This document shows, piece by piece, positions 9,287 to 20,498 of a stretch of 64,000 nt of DNA. The notes under the pieces are model-generated. The model was not told where the DNA came from. It did no database searches and was given only the letters and a program-made list of their open reading frames with translations. Each line of letters begins with the position of its first letter. Position 1 is the first letter of the stretch. Both the position numbers and the translations under genes were made by a program. This stretch comes from Prochlorothrix hollandica PCC 9006 = CALU 1027 (GTDB lineage Bacteria; Cyanobacteriota; Cyanobacteriia; Prochlorotrichales; Prochlorotrichaceae): the NCBI RefSeq assembly GCF_000332315.1, contig NZ_KB235944.1, positions 236,641 to 300,640 on the forward strand. The letters are read 5' to 3'.

Positions 9287-9331
9287 TTAGTTATTTTGGA
9301 TTTAGTTATTTTGGATTTAGTTATTTTGGAT
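9287..9331. repeat. Three tandem copies of TTAGTTATTTTGGAT
   Basis: A 15-bp unit is repeated three times at the 3' end of the TOPRIM-like gene. The gene's stop codon lies inside the last copies. Confidence 0.8.
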
Positions 9332-9811
9332 AAAGAGAAATGGTTTGACAGAAGTAGTCATGCGCTTCAATTCATCTTGGTTATGTCTAAGAAGATCATG
9401 TCTCCATAGTTCATCGGTATTGCTAGCACAATTAGCTGCAAGCTCCTCTCCGATCGCTTCAAAGTTCTTTCTAAGACATCCTTTTAATTTTTCTGGCTCA
9501 TTGAAGACACCTAGAATAAATACTCTATCTTTTAAGTCATCTGGAATCTGATTATTTATATGCTCAAGCCGGTCATCTCGGTTGTCGAAATCAATCAGCA
9601 ATACCATTTGTGTAAGTGGGTTCTGCTGCATTTTAGATATATGAGTCTTCTTGAATTTTTCTACCACTTTCTTCCAGCCGCCAGCATTGGGTAAAACCTG
9701 AATGCTTTTTGCCCTAAGTTGTGGGTGCAATAAAAAACCGTTGACTATGCTTGCATTGGCCTGATCTTCGGGTAATACCAGCAGGTGTGCTAAATCCCTA
9801 TTAATGCTCAT
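9317..9811 (-). CDS. TOPRIM-like nuclease partner of the upstream ATPase (putative)
   Basis: A 164-residue protein with no sure family assignment. Its layout fits a minimal TOPRIM fold: an acidic residue after the first strand (LLVLPEDQAN) and a DxD pair after a later strand (MVLLIDFDNRDD), then a strand VFILGVFNEPEKLKG. TOPRIM domains use these acids to bind metal for DNA cleavage or joining. The gene overlaps the ATPase gene by 4 bp (ATGA), so the two are co-translated. Paired ATPase and TOPRIM-type proteins occur in OLD-like anti-phage systems; this link is inference. The end of the gene is made of the 15-bp tandem repeat. Confidence 0.55.
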   Translation of the reverse strand: MSINRDLAHLLVLPEDQANASIVNGFLLHPQLRAKSIQVLPNAGGWKKVVEKFKKTHISKMQQNPLTQMVLLIDFDNRDDRLEHINNQIPDDLKDRVFILGVFNEPEKLKGCLRKNFEAIGEELAANCASNTDELWRHDLLRHNQDELKRMTTSVKPFLFIQNN

Positions 9812-10911
9812 AATTCTGCATCCCCAAGGATTAAGTTATCGATGAGATCGCCGTTGATAGGTACTTCGCTTAATAGTCGGATTAAAGTTGGCTCTAAATG
9901 GCTTTTTCTGTCCAGTAGAAAAATATTTTCACTTGAAAATTTCCGAATTGCTTCCTCATTGTGTGAAGTTGCTAAAAGCTGACTATCATTCTTAAAAGAA
10001 CGTCGTAGCGAAACAATAAAATGTCCAACTTCTGATAGAGAAAGGTAATTATCAGGTTCATCCCAAAAACAAAAAAGTGGGCCATAATATTTATTAGCAG
10101 CTAGGACAACTGCACAAAGAAAAAAACATTTCTCTCCATCAGATAAATCTTTGAACTCAATAGTCAGATTTGCATTATTTTTCTCAAACCTGACAATCAT
10201 ACTCTTAAAGTCTTTGCCGATTAATTCATTTTGAATGTCGCTAATATCAGGCATTACTGATTGGAGGTATTTATCTATTTCTTTATAAGCAGCAGGGTAG
10301 CGGCTTAGCAATCCTGAAAACCATTCTCCAAAATTTGATCCGTCTCGCTTTGGCTCCAACGTTTCACCATTAGAGTTGCCAGTGATCAAGCTTGGGATCG
10401 GGGCTAAAATAATCATATGTGCGAGCCAAGTCCTAAAAATACGGAGTGGATCGGTTTCTGATTGTTCCTGAATAACTGGAAGAGCAATAAGATGCCAAGC
10501 CACTAGAAATTGAGTGTCTCGACTTCGTGCAGTAAGATTAACTTGGGCTGCACTTCTAGAGAAAATAGTCTCTCCTGAAACTATCAATTTTTCTTCAAAT
10601 ACTCGAAGTTCTTTAAAGCCTTCTGGCAACTCCAATACAAGCACATACTGATACAACTTATTTTTCAGTAACACCTCTATTTCAAACCGAATTGGTACAG
10701 TAAATCTTTCGGGTACGAAATCCTTAGGTTGGACTAGATTCCCAACTCTATTGACACCTCGACCAATACTCTGAAGCAACTGTAGTGCATGAGCAATAGT
10801 TGATTTACCGACACCATTTTTCCCAATCATCAATGCAGATGACATGTCCTTAAGGGATAATTCAAAATTCTCTAAGCATCTGAAATTATGTACATAAAGT
10901 CTTTGGAGCAT
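9808..10911 (-). CDS. AAA (ABC-type, RecF/OLD-like) ATPase
   Basis: A chromosome-maintenance-type ATPase of about 367 residues. Marks in order: LYVHNFRCLENFELSL and Walker A GKNGVGKST in the first 40 residues, an ABC-like signature FKDLSDGEKCFFL near residue 270, Walker B LFCFWDEPDNYLS, and the switch histidine LLATSHNEEA. The start at 10911 (MLQRLYVHN) agrees with the family. An upstream in-frame start at 11034 lies inside a MITE and would add 41 residues of mobile-element sequence. It overlaps the TOPRIM-like gene downstream. Together they resemble two-gene DNA-targeting defence modules, but the exact type is not recognised. Confidence 0.75.
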   Translation of the reverse strand: MLQRLYVHNFRCLENFELSLKDMSSALMIGKNGVGKSTIAHALQLLQSIGRGVNRVGNLVQPKDFVPERFTVPIRFEIEVLLKNKLYQYVLVLELPEGFKELRVFEEKLIVSGETIFSRSAAQVNLTARSRDTQFLVAWHLIALPVIQEQSETDPLRIFRTWLAHMIILAPIPSLITGNSNGETLEPKRDGSNFGEWFSGLLSRYPAAYKEIDKYLQSVMPDISDIQNELIGKDFKSMIVRFEKNNANLTIEFKDLSDGEKCFFLCAVVLAANKYYGPLFCFWDEPDNYLSLSEVGHFIVSLRRSFKNDSQLLATSHNEEAIRKFSSENIFLLDRKSHLEPTLIRLLSEVPINGDLIDNLILGDAEL

Positions 10912-10990
10912 AGTAAAATAACTCTGATTTTTAGCAAATGAAAGGTTGGGTATCAACTTCAGGTAGGACAGCTTTAACAGTAAGAATTTT

Positions 10991-11122
10991 GGCTCTCTGG
11001 GGATCACGCCGAGGACTGTTAAATATGATACCATTTGAATGAAGGGTTATTATTGGAATCCTGTCTGTACAAAGCTTTTACGGATCATTACCCAAGCTTA
11101 TCAGCCTCATTCCCAGAGAGCC
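10991..11122. mobile_element. 132-bp MITE, GGCTCTCTGGG ends (copy 1)
   Basis: Terminal inverted repeats GGCTCTCTGGGGATCACGCC and GGCTCTCTGGGAATGAGGC. It has the same length and sequence as copies at 18963, 34843 and 59299. Here the 8-bp target duplication is not clear. It lies about 80 bp upstream of the ATPase start, oriented so that its internal ATG reads in frame into that gene. From 11123 to 11329 I see no gene. Confidence 0.85.
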
Positions 11123-11329: not shown

Positions 11330-12859
11330 TTACTTCACGGGTGCAAAGTCAAAGCCTGTACCAGAAGTCGATCCGGGTTGTACCGTGAGTAGCAAAACAC
11401 TAGCGTTGCGGTCTCCAGAAGGGGTAAATTGGATTGTCCCTGTGGCACCCGCAGCCTGGAAGTCTGATTGGGCAAGAGCTTGAGCAAATGCCGATCGCAG
11501 GCTAGGATCACCGGACGGGGTTAAATTAGCTTGCGTTTGGGCACTGCGAAACACTTGCCCTACATCGTAAGCCAACGCAGTCCGCCAGTTCACCAATCCA
11601 CCCCAAAGCGCCGTGGAAGTGCTAACAAACTCAGCATTAGGACTGGCTTGACCATGCCAAGGGACCGACAAAATCGCTCCTTCAAGTTCTGCGCCCGCCT
11701 GTTGCAAGCTTTCAATGCGATAAAAAGCATCCCCCGCTAAAATCGGCAGCTTTTTCTGATTCGCCTTGACCACAGCCACGGCTGGCTCAAAAGTGTCGGA
11801 ATTAGGCAACAGGACGATCAAGTCACCCGTTGCAGTAGCAACCGTTTCTGCCGGGTTGCCTTGGGAGAGATCCACCTCTTGGCTAATGCTACCGCCTTCT
11901 AAATTGAAGGTACTCACAAATGCATCCTTGAGAGACTGGCTGTAAGAATTCTGAGGATTAAAGAACACAACCGCATTCTTTTTGCCCATCGTGGTCAAGG
12001 CATAGCGGGCAAGGGCAGTCCCCGTAAATTGATCATTGGGAATGGTACGAAAGATGTAATTCACACCATCTTCTCCCTTGGCCAGTTGGGTGAGGTCCGT
12101 ACTCGTGGAAGTGGGCGCAATCATGGGCAGTTGACCACTGGTGTAGATGGGGGCTGCTGCAACAGAAGGATCGCTGCTGCCGTGACCTAAGACTGCAATG
12201 ACGCTGGGATCCGCCACCAATGCCTTGGCCACTTGCACGGCTAGATCCGCCTCATTAGCATCATCCGCAATCAGCACCTGCACCGGAATCCCTGCGGCCA
12301 CCATTTCTTCCTGGGCTTGAGCAACGCCACGCAGAATTTCCAAAGCAGGATTTGGGCTTTCGGCAATAGGCACTACTGCCGCCAGGGTAAAGCTCGGATT
12401 TGTACCTACCTTTGCATTATTCAGGTAAATACGGGCTTCAGGGTCGTTTCGTTGTTCTTGGAGTGAACTTTCAAACTGAGTCAGCGCTGTGGCAAAGTCC
12501 CCCGCAGCAAAGGCAACAGCCCCCGCTTCCTTAGCAGGAGTCACTAACTCTGGAAAGAGCAGCTTATCCCCTCGACTGAGGCGATCTGAGACCTGATTGT
12601 TGCCGAGCAAGCCCAAAAAACTGCTAATGGGACTACTAGCACCGCTAGTGATGCCACTGAGGAACGGGAGTTGATCCTTAAAGGCGATCGCTCCGGTCCC
12701 CAAGCCCAGCACAACGATCGTCCCCCCAATCAGGAGGAAGTTCGGTTTAGATTTTTGGAGGGGTTGGCCGCAGATTTCACATTTGCGGGCCGTGGACGGA
12801 TTATCCTCATGGCCACATTTGGGGCATTTGAGGGATTCTGCATCGTGGTCGTAGGTCAT
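11330..12859 (-). CDS. Zinc-ribbon, membrane-anchored periplasmic-binding-type protein
   Basis: A 509-residue protein in three parts. Residues 1-32 hold a zinc ribbon with two CxxC pairs (CPKCGHED...CEICGQPL). Residues 43-61 are a single membrane segment. A short TPR-like helical stretch (about 110-150) follows, then a branched-chain-amino-acid-receptor-like binding domain from about 155 (AAVVPIAESPNP, ILRGVAQAQEEMV, VLGHGSSDPSVAAAPIY, PTSTSTDLTQLA). The topology puts the ribbon in the cytoplasm and the binding domain outside, so it looks like a sensor and not a transport component; no permease or ATPase of a transporter is nearby. It follows the tubulin-like gene by 9 bp on the same strand. 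The ligand is unknown. Confidence 0.7.
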   Translation of the reverse strand: MTYDHDAESLKCPKCGHEDNPSTARKCEICGQPLQKSKPNFLLIGGTIVVLGLGTGAIAFKDQLPFLSGITSGASSPISSFLGLLGNNQVSDRLSRGDKLLFPELVTPAKEAGAVAFAAGDFATALTQFESSLQEQRNDPEARIYLNNAKVGTNPSFTLAAVVPIAESPNPALEILRGVAQAQEEMVAAGIPVQVLIADDANEADLAVQVAKALVADPSVIAVLGHGSSDPSVAAAPIYTSGQLPMIAPTSTSTDLTQLAKGEDGVNYIFRTIPNDQFTGTALARYALTTMGKKNAVVFFNPQNSYSQSLKDAFVSTFNLEGGSISQEVDLSQGNPAETVATATGDLIVLLPNSDTFEPAVAVVKANQKKLPILAGDAFYRIESLQQAGAELEGAILSVPWHGQASPNAEFVSTSTALWGGLVNWRTALAYDVGQVFRSAQTQANLTPSGDPSLRSAFAQALAQSDFQAAGATGTIQFTPSGDRNASVLLLTVQPGSTSGTGFDFAPVK

Positions 12860-12868
12860 GCTAGGCTC

Positions 12869-15800
12869 CTAGGAAAGGCTCAATTCAGCCTGGATTTGTG
12901 ATTCAATCGCTGCAACTTGCTCATTGCTGAGGTTTAGATCCTCTTGAAGCTCTAGTAATTGAGCTTGCTCTTCTAAGTCGATTTCTCCATCATTTTCTAG
13001 AAAGGCTCGATACATTAAAGCATATTCCTCCAGGGCATCGGCAGCAGAACTGCTCAGGCTAAACTCAGAAATCAGCGCATCCGCCGTGGCCCGATCGATT
13101 TGATACCGTTGCTGGAAGCGATCGAGCAAGGCTCTTTCTGAGGCTGAGGGTTCCCCATTTCTGTAGCAAGTGGCAACTAGCTTGCGGAAACGCTCGATAT
13201 TTTCAGAGAAAGCCGGACTACTGCTAGCTGGCGGAGGTGAGACCATGGGCGATCGAGCCATGGGCATCACGGGTGTTGTTGGCTGGATCGGTTCCACCAT
13301 CAAGTTGTGGGTCTTGACATAGCCCTCGATCGCAACCTCAGCCTTACCATAGACGGGGTTATCTTTGCCACCCGGCAGGCTATTCTCAATCTCCTGCAAA
13401 CACTGCACGAGTTTACGGTAAAGTTCCTGCTTTTGCGGCTTCGTGGTGGCAGCTTCACCAATCTGCCGCAGCATATCGGCTAGCAAATCTCGAATCTTAC
13501 GATTTTCATCCGCCATGAGGTTTTCCTCGGCATGCTCCCAACTGGTGCCGATCGTTGCCACCTTGTTCAGCCCCGTTTTCGGATCAATATAGTTGAATCG
13601 AATCTCGGTAAACTGAGTAACCTGATTCTCGGTTGCCACCAGAATCCCAAATACCTTGGCCAGTAAACAGTTATTTCGGGCTTGGGTTTCCTCCTGACTG
13701 AACGGCATAATATCCTGAAACTGCCGATAGTCCTGGTGAGTATGGAGCGGATTCTTATCAGATTGGCTCACAGAACGATAGACTGAGCGCATTTTCTCTA
13801 GCCCTTCAATCAAACGAAGGGGAAATGCGCCTGTTTCCTGGATAAAGAAGACATGATTTAAGTCATTGAGGGGCCGAATATCCTTATCCGTGAGCGTGCT
13901 ACTCTTACGAACCATAGGCAGCAGTGCGCTGACGGCTGCATCGGTGGGATGGTTGCCCCCATGAATGCCCACTAGGGACTGTCGCTTCTCCGCACGATTA
14001 TCCCAACTTAAGTTAACCTGTTCCTGGCTAAAGCGCAGGAATGGCTCACTTTTCTCAAAGGTAATCTTAATTTGAGCCTCTTGCTGCTCCAGGGTAGGGT
14101 ACTCCTCCAGAAACTTACGGGCAACGGAAGCTTGGAGATGGGTTTTATCCAAAAACTCGCCCACACAGGCATTCAGCAGTCGCTCAAACAGATCCTGAAC
14201 TCGTAGGGTGTCAAAGGTTGCCAAAGCAAAAAGTGTGGTATTAATTTCCCCCAAACATGCATCTCCAATCGTTTGATACAGGCTGTCTCCCTTGTTGTTG
14301 ACAATTTGCGCAAAGATTGTGTCCACATCCTTGGCGTTGTAGAGCAAGATACCGTTTACGGTGAGCGTACCCGTTTCCTTGAGGTAAGTTTGCTCCCGAT
14401 CGATCAGTTTTTGCCGCAGTTGCTCCAAAACCTTATCAAGCCTGCCTAACTGTACCAATAGGCGACTGGCTTCTTCCTTGAGTGTATCAATGAGATCTAC
14501 CCCTAAGGCCCGCGATTTAATCTCAACCTTGGCAGTATACAGGGATCCCATCGCAAGCATAACGTTATTAAAGTCTTTGTCCAGAACCGCCTTACGGTTC
14601 ATGAGCATAAACTTACCCACATGTTCCTCAAGCTGAGACAAAAGGGTTTGGAGATTATTGCTGGCGGTGCGCTCCTTAGCAAGCCACACTTTCTGACGAT
14701 CTTGGTCAAAGCGGCTGCGATAGTCACTGAGGACTGTTAATAGAGTTTCTAAAAAGACCCGTGTAAAACGGGGGCCTTTAGTGCGATCGGCCACCATGCT
14801 TTGAACCAGTTGGGCCAGTTCACCCGTCTTTTGGGTTTTGAGATAGGCCAGGTTATCCCACATTTTCTGGAAATAGTCACTCCAGCGGCGAGGATCCGGG
14901 TCCGTATCGTGGAAATGAGGACTAAACTTCTCTTCTTCTACGTTAATGAAGCGGCGTAGGTTCTCAGGGGGAATCTCAAGATCATTGCGACGCTTGCGAA
15001 TGCTAGCAACCCAACTCGCCACTTCCTTCGACAGAGGCTTCAGATTATTGCCCAAGCTGATGCCATCCAGGACTTGGTGCTGGTTTTCGGACTCCGCCAG
15101 TTGCAAATTGGGCAAAATTTCTGTTTGGATCAGATCGCGCATGGCACCGGGAACGCGATTCGCATTTTCCCATTGGGCTACTACCTGAGCTGCTAACCGG
15201 GAAGAACAAGCCTGAGAGACCCGCCGCACTGGAAACTGAATACTGGACAGGCCGAAGGAAATAAAGTTTTGGGGATAGCCCAGCGTATCGGGGGATGCCC
15301 AATGTTTGCGAATATTGTCCCTTACCAGCTTTTTGTACTGGCTAAAGCCAGAGCTAAAGTCCAAAAAGATATTCTGAGCCACCATTTCCAAGGTCGCCCC
15401 TAAGGTTGGAAGCGTGACTTTTTCGTTGCTATTGCCCACCAAATAGCAAAAATTAAAGGGAACGTCTTGCCCGCTCTGGCTCGTAATCCGTTCTGAAGCA
15501 CTAGAGCTATATTGACACTCAAAGCGGGTATTAGTCTTAGAGTAGTGGTTTAACTCCATCAAGGCAGAATAGGCATTGGCAATGACCCGATCGCCCAAGC
15601 CCGAAAATGCACCGGGTAACAGCAAATAGGCAGATGTTTGGGGCAAAAGGGAAGCAGGGAGCCAATCTCGCAGATTATAGGCCAAATCCAGGACCATTCC
15701 CGATCCCGTACCACCGGACAGGGAGCAGACGATGAAACAGTTCACCCCCTTATCCAGTTGTACCCCCTGATCGAGCATGAATTTTTCATGGCCAATGATT

Positions 15801-16222
15801 CGACCCTTGGCATTCTCAAAGGTACTTTTGATCGCCGGATAGTTGAGCGAGAAAGCAAACCGCCCAAGAGCACGAATTTGACCAGCACCCGCTAAAATTG
15901 AGTCTGTTCCCCGTAATTCACTGGGAAACCACTCTTCCAAGTAAGGATAAGATGCAATGGAGTTGAGCAGAGCCTTGGCATTTTCGACTTTGGCCCAAAC
16001 TTGCTCTACGGGTTTTAGAGAAATATCTTGCTTGAGGACCGTCTGGGGTTCGGAAACCTTAGCATTTTGTTCTGTGTCAATGTGGACGAAGGAGACGATC
16101 GGGAGATGATCCAGGGATCCATAAGACTCAACGATCATTCGCCGGATCTTAATTAGGATCTCCTTTCCCGTCCCGCCCAAACCTACGATCACCGTGGGGG
16201 TCATACCGACATATTCAGCCAT
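12869..16222 (-). CDS. Large tubulin-like (FtsZ-superfamily) GTPase
   Basis: A 1117-residue protein of the tubulin-like family sometimes labelled Tubulin_2. The N-terminus starts TPTVIVGLGGTGKEIL, the G-box SLSGGTGSGMV lies at residues 168-178, and DTEQN (about 49-53) sits where tubulins contact the nucleotide. The middle 600 residues are largely helical with long charged segments. The last 115 residues form a helical module with GEPSASERALLDRFQQ and ENDGEIDLEEQAQL, a TerB/EF-hand-like pattern common at the ends of cyanobacterial proteins. Known relatives (FtsZ-like proteins described in gene clusters with membrane or von Willebrand proteins) are thought to remodel membranes. Here the partner is the zinc-ribbon receptor-like protein 9 bp downstream. 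Function is unknown. Confidence 0.75.
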   Translation of the reverse strand: MAEYVGMTPTVIVGLGGTGKEILIKIRRMIVESYGSLDHLPIVSFVHIDTEQNAKVSEPQTVLKQDISLKPVEQVWAKVENAKALLNSIASYPYLEEWFPSELRGTDSILAGAGQIRALGRFAFSLNYPAIKSTFENAKGRIIGHEKFMLDQGVQLDKGVNCFIVCSLSGGTGSGMVLDLAYNLRDWLPASLLPQTSAYLLLPGAFSGLGDRVIANAYSALMELNHYSKTNTRFECQYSSSASERITSQSGQDVPFNFCYLVGNSNEKVTLPTLGATLEMVAQNIFLDFSSGFSQYKKLVRDNIRKHWASPDTLGYPQNFISFGLSSIQFPVRRVSQACSSRLAAQVVAQWENANRVPGAMRDLIQTEILPNLQLAESENQHQVLDGISLGNNLKPLSKEVASWVASIRKRRNDLEIPPENLRRFINVEEEKFSPHFHDTDPDPRRWSDYFQKMWDNLAYLKTQKTGELAQLVQSMVADRTKGPRFTRVFLETLLTVLSDYRSRFDQDRQKVWLAKERTASNNLQTLLSQLEEHVGKFMLMNRKAVLDKDFNNVMLAMGSLYTAKVEIKSRALGVDLIDTLKEEASRLLVQLGRLDKVLEQLRQKLIDREQTYLKETGTLTVNGILLYNAKDVDTIFAQIVNNKGDSLYQTIGDACLGEINTTLFALATFDTLRVQDLFERLLNACVGEFLDKTHLQASVARKFLEEYPTLEQQEAQIKITFEKSEPFLRFSQEQVNLSWDNRAEKRQSLVGIHGGNHPTDAAVSALLPMVRKSSTLTDKDIRPLNDLNHVFFIQETGAFPLRLIEGLEKMRSVYRSVSQSDKNPLHTHQDYRQFQDIMPFSQEETQARNNCLLAKVFGILVATENQVTQFTEIRFNYIDPKTGLNKVATIGTSWEHAEENLMADENRKIRDLLADMLRQIGEAATTKPQKQELYRKLVQCLQEIENSLPGGKDNPVYGKAEVAIEGYVKTHNLMVEPIQPTTPVMPMARSPMVSPPPASSSPAFSENIERFRKLVATCYRNGEPSASERALLDRFQQRYQIDRATADALISEFSLSSSAADALEEYALMYRAFLENDGEIDLEEQAQLLELQEDLNLSNEQVAAIESQIQAELSLS

Positions 16223-17431: not shown

Positions 17432-17480
17432 AAAGACGATCGCTTTTCACAAAACACTGAGAAGCGATCGTCTTTTTTAT
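17432..17480. terminator. Rho-independent-type hairpin, probably bidirectional
   Basis: AAGACGATCGCTT pairs with AAGCGATCGTCTT across a 16-base loop and is followed by TTTTTATT. The T-run is on the plus side, but the weaker TTTG on the other side could also end the minus-strand ATPase transcript that stops at 17499. Confidence 0.7.
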
Positions 17481-19746: not shown

Positions 19747-20160
19747 ATGCCCCGCCGTGACTTCTACCATGACAGCGTAAAAAACGCCCTCACAAAAGAA
19801 GGGTGGCGGATTACCCATGATCCCCTAATTTTAGGAGACCTAGAACTGCGCGTCTATCCCGATCTTGGTGCTGAGAAAAACGTAGCAGAGCGTGGGATGC
19901 GCACCCTAGCAATTGAGATCAAGGTATTTGGAGCAGTGGGACAAATCTCAGAACTCCAAAAAGCGATCGGACAGTATGTTCTCTATCGCTCTATCCTCCG
20001 CCGTCAAGACCTTATCCGTTTACTCTATCTCGCTGTTTCTGCGGAAATTTACAGCACTCTATTTCAAAAACAGATCATTCTAAACTTAATTCAAGATGAG
20101 AATATCCGTTTACTAGTTTTTAATCCACTTACCGGGGAAATAGAACAATGGATCGACTAG
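19747..20160 (+). CDS. xisH: XisH family protein
   Basis: XisH was named as a factor needed for excision of the fdxN element in heterocyst-forming cyanobacteria, but xisH/xisI pairs are widespread in genomes without that element. The protein has the expected MPRRDFYHDSVKNALTKEGW start and a nuclease-like core (LAIEIKVFG, QYVLYRSIL) that looks like a PD-(D/E)XK fold with the ExK at IEIK. It is 137 residues, full length. The start of xisI overlaps its end by 13 bp. Confidence 0.9.
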   Translation: MPRRDFYHDSVKNALTKEGWRITHDPLILGDLELRVYPDLGAEKNVAERGMRTLAIEIKVFGAVGQISELQKAIGQYVLYRSILRRQDLIRLLYLAVSAEIYSTLFQKQIILNLIQDENIRLLVFNPLTGEIEQWID

Positions 20161-20498
20161 AGCAGTACCGATCGACCTTGGAAACCGTCCTGAACGAACA
20201 CGCCCAACTTGCGGCCCAAGTCAGAGCCGAACATCCCAACGCTCCTGATACTCCTGCCGAAACGATCGCCATCTGTGACCCTAAAACCGACAATTATCTG
20301 CTGATCACCACAGGCTGGACCTCAAAGCAGCGCATTCATAGTATTTTAGCTCACTTTCGTATTATTAACGCCAGCATCTGCATCGAGTGGAACGGCATCG
20401 AAAACCTGATTGAAGACCTCATCGATCGCGGCATCCCTGCCACCGCCTTTCTTCAGGCCACCGCCCAACACCCGCCCCGATCGACCGCGCTACAATAA
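20148..20498 (+). CDS. xisI: XisI family protein
   Basis: Partner of XisH. Marks: MDRLEQYRSTLETVLNEHA, the NYLLITTGW strand, RIHSILAHFRIINASICIEW and the tail EDLIDRGIPATAFLQATAQ. It is 116 residues, full length. Its 3' end is the same sequence that recurs three more times around here as a repeat. It is co-translated with xisH. Whether the pair acts as a toxin-antitoxin or a recombination accessory is not known from the sequence. Confidence 0.9.
   Translation: MDRLEQYRSTLETVLNEHAQLAAQVRAEHPNAPDTPAETIAICDPKTDNYLLITTGWTSKQRIHSILAHFRIINASICIEWNGIENLIEDLIDRGIPATAFLQATAQHPPRSTALQ

Follow-up and report, generated by a model that had tools for sequence, protein, structure and literature searches.

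The 64,000-nucleotide stretch of Prochlorothrix hollandica DNA analysed here (the window) encodes a giant tubulin-like GTPase of the FtsZ-like 1 (FtsZl1; Pfam Tubulin_2) family and, immediately downstream, a receptor that joins a zinc ribbon, a membrane helix and a periplasmic binding-protein domain. This pair is real and conserved, and constitutes a variant of the known FtsZl1 systems. We infer, going past the pairing, co-inheritance and fold themselves, that a receptor-to-GTPase mechanism fits these observations best: the two proteins would form a transmembrane receptor and its dedicated cytoplasmic FtsZl1 GTPase, gated by ligand through the zinc ribbon (probability about 0.5).

When the FtsZl1 family was defined in 2010, the neighbours listed for it were vWA, GTPase, kinase and OmpA genes, and a role in membrane remodelling was proposed (Makarova and Koonin, PMC2875224). 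In the review correspondence, G. Jekely drew attention to neighbouring genes for binding proteins in Arthrospira and Polaromonas and suggested a function in transport or signalling, to which the authors replied that such neighbours were restricted to one or a few related organisms (PMC2875224). A reviewer's query of how a cytoplasmic FtsZ-like protein can act with periplasmic partners dates from the same exchange, and the authors likewise left the formation of filaments by FtsZl1 open (PMC2875224).

Results

The GTPase and receptor genes lie 9 bp apart

The GTPase gene (12869..16222; 1117 aa) was identified from its ORF, Pfam match, conservation, AlphaFold model and Foldseek search, and the receptor gene (11330..12859; 509 aa) from its ORF, Pfam match and hydropathy; both, and all features of them given below, are on the minus strand. 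The two ORFs confirm the arrangement put forward in an earlier, sequence-only reading of this DNA, with 9 bp between the end of the GTPase gene and the start of the receptor gene. A Shine-Dalgarno AGGAG (12866..12870) lies across the GTPase stop codon (tAGGAGcctagcATG), six bases ahead of the receptor ATG, an overlap that likely couples translation of the two genes. Co-directional long ORFs with such domain scores are not chance. Promoter and terminator scans gave nothing better than chance level; upstream of the GTPase gene, a hairpin of 18 pairs is followed by a T-rich stretch (17432-17475, plus strand). The source genome holds a single Tubulin_2 gene and encodes FtsZ separately.

The GTPase has invariant GTP-binding loops and a predicted tubulin-type fold

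The Tubulin_2 domain of the GTPase (residues 11-348; 15179..16192) matches PF13809 with an E value of 3e-95 (320 bits, cut-off 27). It contains a T1-like glycine loop, GLGGTG (residues 14-19; 16166..16183), and a T4-like tubulin signature, SLSGGTGSGM (residues 167-176; 15695..15724), which aligns with the GGGTGTG of FtsZ in a profile alignment (E 0.007) and includes, as SGGTGSG (residues 169-175), the (G)GGTG(S/T)G signature loop of FtsZl1. Conservation of the GTP-binding residues, on which the sequence-only reading had made its interpretation depend, is evident in 47 homologues with identity as low as 19%: G14, G16, G17 and G19 of the glycine loop, together with S167 and G170-G175 of the signature, are invariant. 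When an AlphaFold model of the protein (mean pLDDT 85) was compared by Foldseek, CetZ and tubulins ranked first (probability 1.0, best E 3e-5, target TM-score up to ~0.5), and the GTP-binding half is thus tubulin-like; a sequence search found no relatives of the GTPase in the PDB. GTP binding is a well-supported prediction from the invariant loops and this fold.

Downstream of this domain, the model places a long helical or coiled-coil region (residues 449-618; 14369..14878), a mixed alpha/beta part (residues 747-892) and helices at residues 905-1113, giving the extended coiled coil and mostly helical C-terminus that are traits of FtsZl1. The C-terminal helical domain (residues 1003-1117; 12872..13216) may be TerB-like, the last 115 residues matching TerB weakly (E 7e-4, below the Pfam cut-off). 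A second AlphaFold model, of residues 620-975, had no fold match in the PDB. The search for a tubulin C-terminal domain after the coiled coil likewise came up empty, the hhalign match to the C-terminal part of FtsZ being insignificant (E 0.43).

The receptor is predicted to span the membrane once

The receptor begins with a CxxC..CxxC zinc ribbon (residues 12-30; 12770..12826), predicted from sequence and hydropathy to be cytoplasmic, followed by a membrane helix (residues 41-59; 12683..12739; mean hydropathy 2.1), a short TPR-like segment (residues 112-146; 12422..12526; weak TPR_14 and TPR_19 matches) and a Peripla_BP_6 domain (residues 177-483; 11411..12331; Pfam E 1e-21). The presence of one strong helix, with K/R in excess on its N-terminal side, supports the predicted topology in which the sensor lies outside the membrane and the GTPase inside, as had been supposed from the sequence; a weaker hydropathy peak at residues 206-224 falls within the binding-protein domain. 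In the PDB, the closest relatives of that domain are 3hut (E 4e-20) and 3td9 (E 2e-19), both annotated as branched-chain amino-acid binding proteins, and judged from these relatives the ligand is likely to be amino-acid-like. Other cyanobacteria fuse Peripla_BP_6 proteins of this family to STAND-like NTPases or encode them beside a 4-Cys protein kinase, a usage consistent with a predicted sensing role. At locus L152 (1827-4897), for instance, the gene of a protein kinase with a 4-Cys prefix precedes that of a membrane-anchored Peripla_BP_6 protein, forming a parallel receptor pair.

The zinc-ribbon/helix module is co-inherited with two FtsZl1 subfamilies

Tubulin_2 genes occur in 71 of 386 cyanobacterial genomes. 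Comparing the neighbourhoods of 100 loci and the window sorted them into clear sets, backed by a tree (a quick one, with some long branches): subfamily A, the window's own, in which a zinc-ribbon receptor gene is usually next; subfamily B, its sister on the tree, with a zinc-ribbon receptor and a membrane vWA gene; subfamily C, ordered vWA, FtsZl1, MotA/ZorA-like, OmpA/ZorB-like; and subfamily D, ordered vWA, FtsZl1, 1000-aa protein. The vWA gene seen in B, C and D is absent among the window neighbours, and as this gene is a frequent rather than universal operon partner of FtsZl1, its absence is not disqualifying. Subfamilies C and D function without the zinc-ribbon/helix module, which weighs against the receptor reading. 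In most subfamily C loci (for example L066, 6177-7724, and L072, 5340-6143), the two terminal genes match ZorA (E 4e-14) and ZorB (E 1.5e-6) models of PADLOC; a Zorya-type motor pair combined with a tubulin-like GTPase is possibly undescribed in such form.

Among 28 subfamily A loci, four end at the GTPase gene; in the 24 with downstream sequence, the receptor gene is immediately next in 15, including the window, and at most four genes away in 2 more. Genomes of a separate sample supplied two additional adjacent pairs. The module itself was found in 27 of 27 genomes with subfamily A or B FtsZl1, as against 0 of the remaining 359 cyanobacteria at a similar score (nominal p 4e-42, which ignores kinship, the phylogenetic control being 7 within-genus contrasts). 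These 27 genomes span 12 families and 17 genera, and 7 genera hold both states, some genomes having both genes and others neither. Adjacency and co-occurrence together bear out the conserved link between GTPase and receptor that the sequence-only reading had envisaged. They also reverse, for cyanobacteria, the 2010 reply to Jekely: on present counts, binding-protein partners are no longer rare.

How the module was recovered depended on its form. With the B-type zinc-ribbon/helix segment alone, strong matches were obtained in 21 of the 386 genomes, each of which belongs to the 23 that carry subfamily B (two marginal matches, E ~1e-3, were disregarded), and the module of the other two B genomes, G207 and G298, was found by full-length search. 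The A-type segment gave strong matches only in the four subfamily A genomes, including those of Gloeomargarita type, where the module is present and no receptor lies beside the GTPase locus; its weaker matches (E above 1e-7) fall on the zinc ribbon of other proteins. Full-length receptor searches miss the PstS-like, phosphonate-type, coiled-coil and unlinked Gloeomargarita-type forms, which zinc-ribbon-only searches recover. The module is unlinked to the GTPase gene in 14 of the 27 genomes (12 with subfamily B and both of Gloeomargarita type), so linkage alone cannot explain the co-occurrence.

Outer domains are exchanged on a constant inner end

The outer domains carried by the zinc-ribbon/helix end are diverse: Peripla_BP_6, PBP_like_2 (PstS-like), NMT1 with OmpA, Phosphonate-bd with SNase, WD40 and coiled coil. 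They include four classes of binding protein, and the type of binding protein changed at least four times on the subfamily A tree, while the inner end does not vary, as in a receptor family whose members share one cytoplasmic target. Some of the attached domains, namely WD40, coiled coil, OmpA and SNase, are no receptors for solutes, and some family members may therefore act as anchors or adhesins. Individual proteins display these combinations in full: L082 (11641-13497) encodes a zinc ribbon, membrane helix, phosphonate-binding domain and staphylococcal-nuclease-like domain in a single protein, and the Gloeomargarita-type L176 (1144-2301) and L178 (1544-2680) encode a zinc ribbon, membrane helix and WD40 propeller, unlinked to the GTPase.

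Discussion

In the mechanism we favour, the binding-protein domain would capture a small solute in the periplasm, and the single membrane helix would connect this outer domain to the constant cytoplasmic zinc ribbon, which would dock the FtsZl1 GTPase at the cytoplasmic side of the membrane. When the outer domain closes on its ligand, this docking would change, and with it the GTPase's GTP-dependent state or assembly. By fitting various outer domains to one zinc-ribbon/helix plug, different lineages could couple one machine to different cues.

The strongest competitor, which we nevertheless think unlikely, is that the zinc-ribbon/helix protein is an anchor rather than a sensor: it would hold FtsZl1, assembled as a filament or sheet, at the membrane, much as ZipA and FtsA hold FtsZ, with its outer domain gripping the wall or outer envelope, and the whole would serve to remodel or stiffen the envelope. 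An OmpA peptidoglycan-binding domain is indeed present on two receptors, subfamily C has OmpA/ZorB-like and MotA-like partners, and membrane remodelling was the original proposal for FtsZl1 (PMC2875224). However, most of the outer domains are solute-binding folds, of four classes, for which an anchor would have no need, and filament formation is a putative property of FtsZl1.

That the binding protein feeds an ABC or TRAP transporter, which FtsZl1 would organise or regulate, seems to us improbable. The receptor domain is homologous to ABC substrate-binding proteins, the next genes at L004 resemble those for a binding protein, a permease and an ATPase, and transport was raised alongside signalling by the 2010 reviewer (PMC2875224); yet no permease or ATPase gene lies beside the window pair, nor in most loci. 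The binding proteins of ABC importers are exported or are lipoproteins, whereas in this receptor a zinc ribbon, predicted to be cytoplasmic, precedes an internal N-terminal helix that would hold the protein in the membrane, and relatives of its domain sit on signalling NTPases.

A role in conflict with phages, in which an infection sensor would be joined to an effector that depends on NTP, along the lines suggested for GTPase-tubulin-vWA systems, is in our judgement a long shot. Those related tubulin/vWA systems have been proposed to be conflict systems (PMC7159879), the partners in subfamily C match ZorA and ZorB, and one receptor carries a nuclease-like domain on its predicted outer side. 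The sequence-only reading had considered defence because the pair shares its island with an AAA ATPase and a 164-aa partner (9317-11034), but these are absent from all other FtsZl1 loci, and the suggestion is not supported: in Nodosilinea-type and Gloeomargarita-type genomes, homologues keep conserved chromosomal surroundings without common defence neighbours, and the best match of the pair to PADLOC models (E 0.014 over 41 residues) is unconvincing. The neighbouring ATPase, an AAA_21 protein whose best PADLOC match is AbiLi (E 3.5e-26), and its 164-aa partner look like a separate defence-type pair. On the other side of the GTPase gene, at 19747-20498, lies an XisH gene (PF08814, E 2e-41), and the next gene, also small, may encode XisI. 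That the two genes are merely chance neighbours, for which their lack of linkage in 14 genomes might speak, we reject on the co-occurrence of 27/27 versus 0/359.

If receptor and GTPase do act together, the output is probably an envelope process, and type IV pilus motility is the best current lead, a tentative one. In two subfamily B loci of small genomes, L058 (7166-16203) and L059, CheY, CheW, MCP and CheA genes lie upstream of FtsZl1 and a pilin gene downstream; a PilA-like neighbour in Thermosynechococcus was already remarked upon in the 2010 correspondence (PMC2875224). In Synechocystis, the Tubulin_2 gene sll0445 and two neighbours are required for normal phototaxis, and the Sll0445-Sll0446-Sll0447 proteins were placed in complexes with pilus assembly proteins (PMC9880817). 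Judged from its described partners and from locus L111, sll0445 appears to lie on a branch distant from the window GTPase, so this link, which stands on one clade and one apparently distant paralogue, is a lead and not proof.

One-helix proteins with a fixed inner end and variable outer sensors, co-inherited with the GTPase, offer a concrete answer to the 2010 reviewer's query about periplasmic partners, and reduce a question open since then to a two-protein binding test. If the answer is correct, a relative of tubulin would be a direct receptor target in bacteria. It is possible, although the odds are against it, that this is a new type of signal transduction in bacteria: transmembrane receptors, interchangeable but for their constant zinc-ribbon plug, would signal straight to a tubulin-superfamily GTPase, and nutrient sensing would thereby control a cytoskeletal assembly with neither a kinase nor a chemotaxis array between.

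The proposal that the pair belongs to no described system holds in part. Its GTPase belongs to the FtsZl1 family of 2010, whose binding-protein neighbours were mentioned in review correspondence (PMC2875224), whereas no paper describing the zinc-ribbon receptor family was found in the open-access journal literature searched. Like the FtsZl1 systems of that study, the window pair combines an N-terminal Tubulin_2 domain, central coiled coil and helical C-terminus with a membrane-bound partner that has an outer domain; unlike them, it has no vWA gene, and its partner is a zinc-ribbon receptor that does not feature in the 2010 main text (PMC2875224). The Synechocystis Sll0445-Sll0446-Sll0447 set is similarly a cyanobacterial Tubulin_2 protein encoded with partner genes (PMC9880817). 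Locus L111 (4714-11012), which we infer to correspond to sll0445, resembles the description of that set, encoding a 500-aa Tubulin_2 protein, a large actin/HSP70-like protein and a zinc-ribbon coiled-coil protein; in contrast to the window, its ~500-aa Tubulin_2 protein is missed by phmmer with the window GTPase, and no binding-protein receptor is adjacent. The GAP1-N2 GTPase-tubulin-vWA conflict systems also unite a tubulin-family protein with membrane components and, in their case, outer vWA domains, but are defined by TRAFAC double GTPases and GAP1 (PMC7159879), none of which was seen among the neighbouring ORFs examined, part of them scanned with Pfam. Zorya is approached by subfamily C, whose operons end in ZorA-like and ZorB-like genes; the window locus has neither, and vWA and FtsZl1 are no parts of Zorya. 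Finally, the cyanobacterial STAND-NTPase and 4-Cys kinase receptors share with the window pair a Peripla_BP_6 outer domain and a cytoplasmic signalling protein, but they combine that domain with a fused NTPase or a kinase instead of a tubulin-like GTPase.
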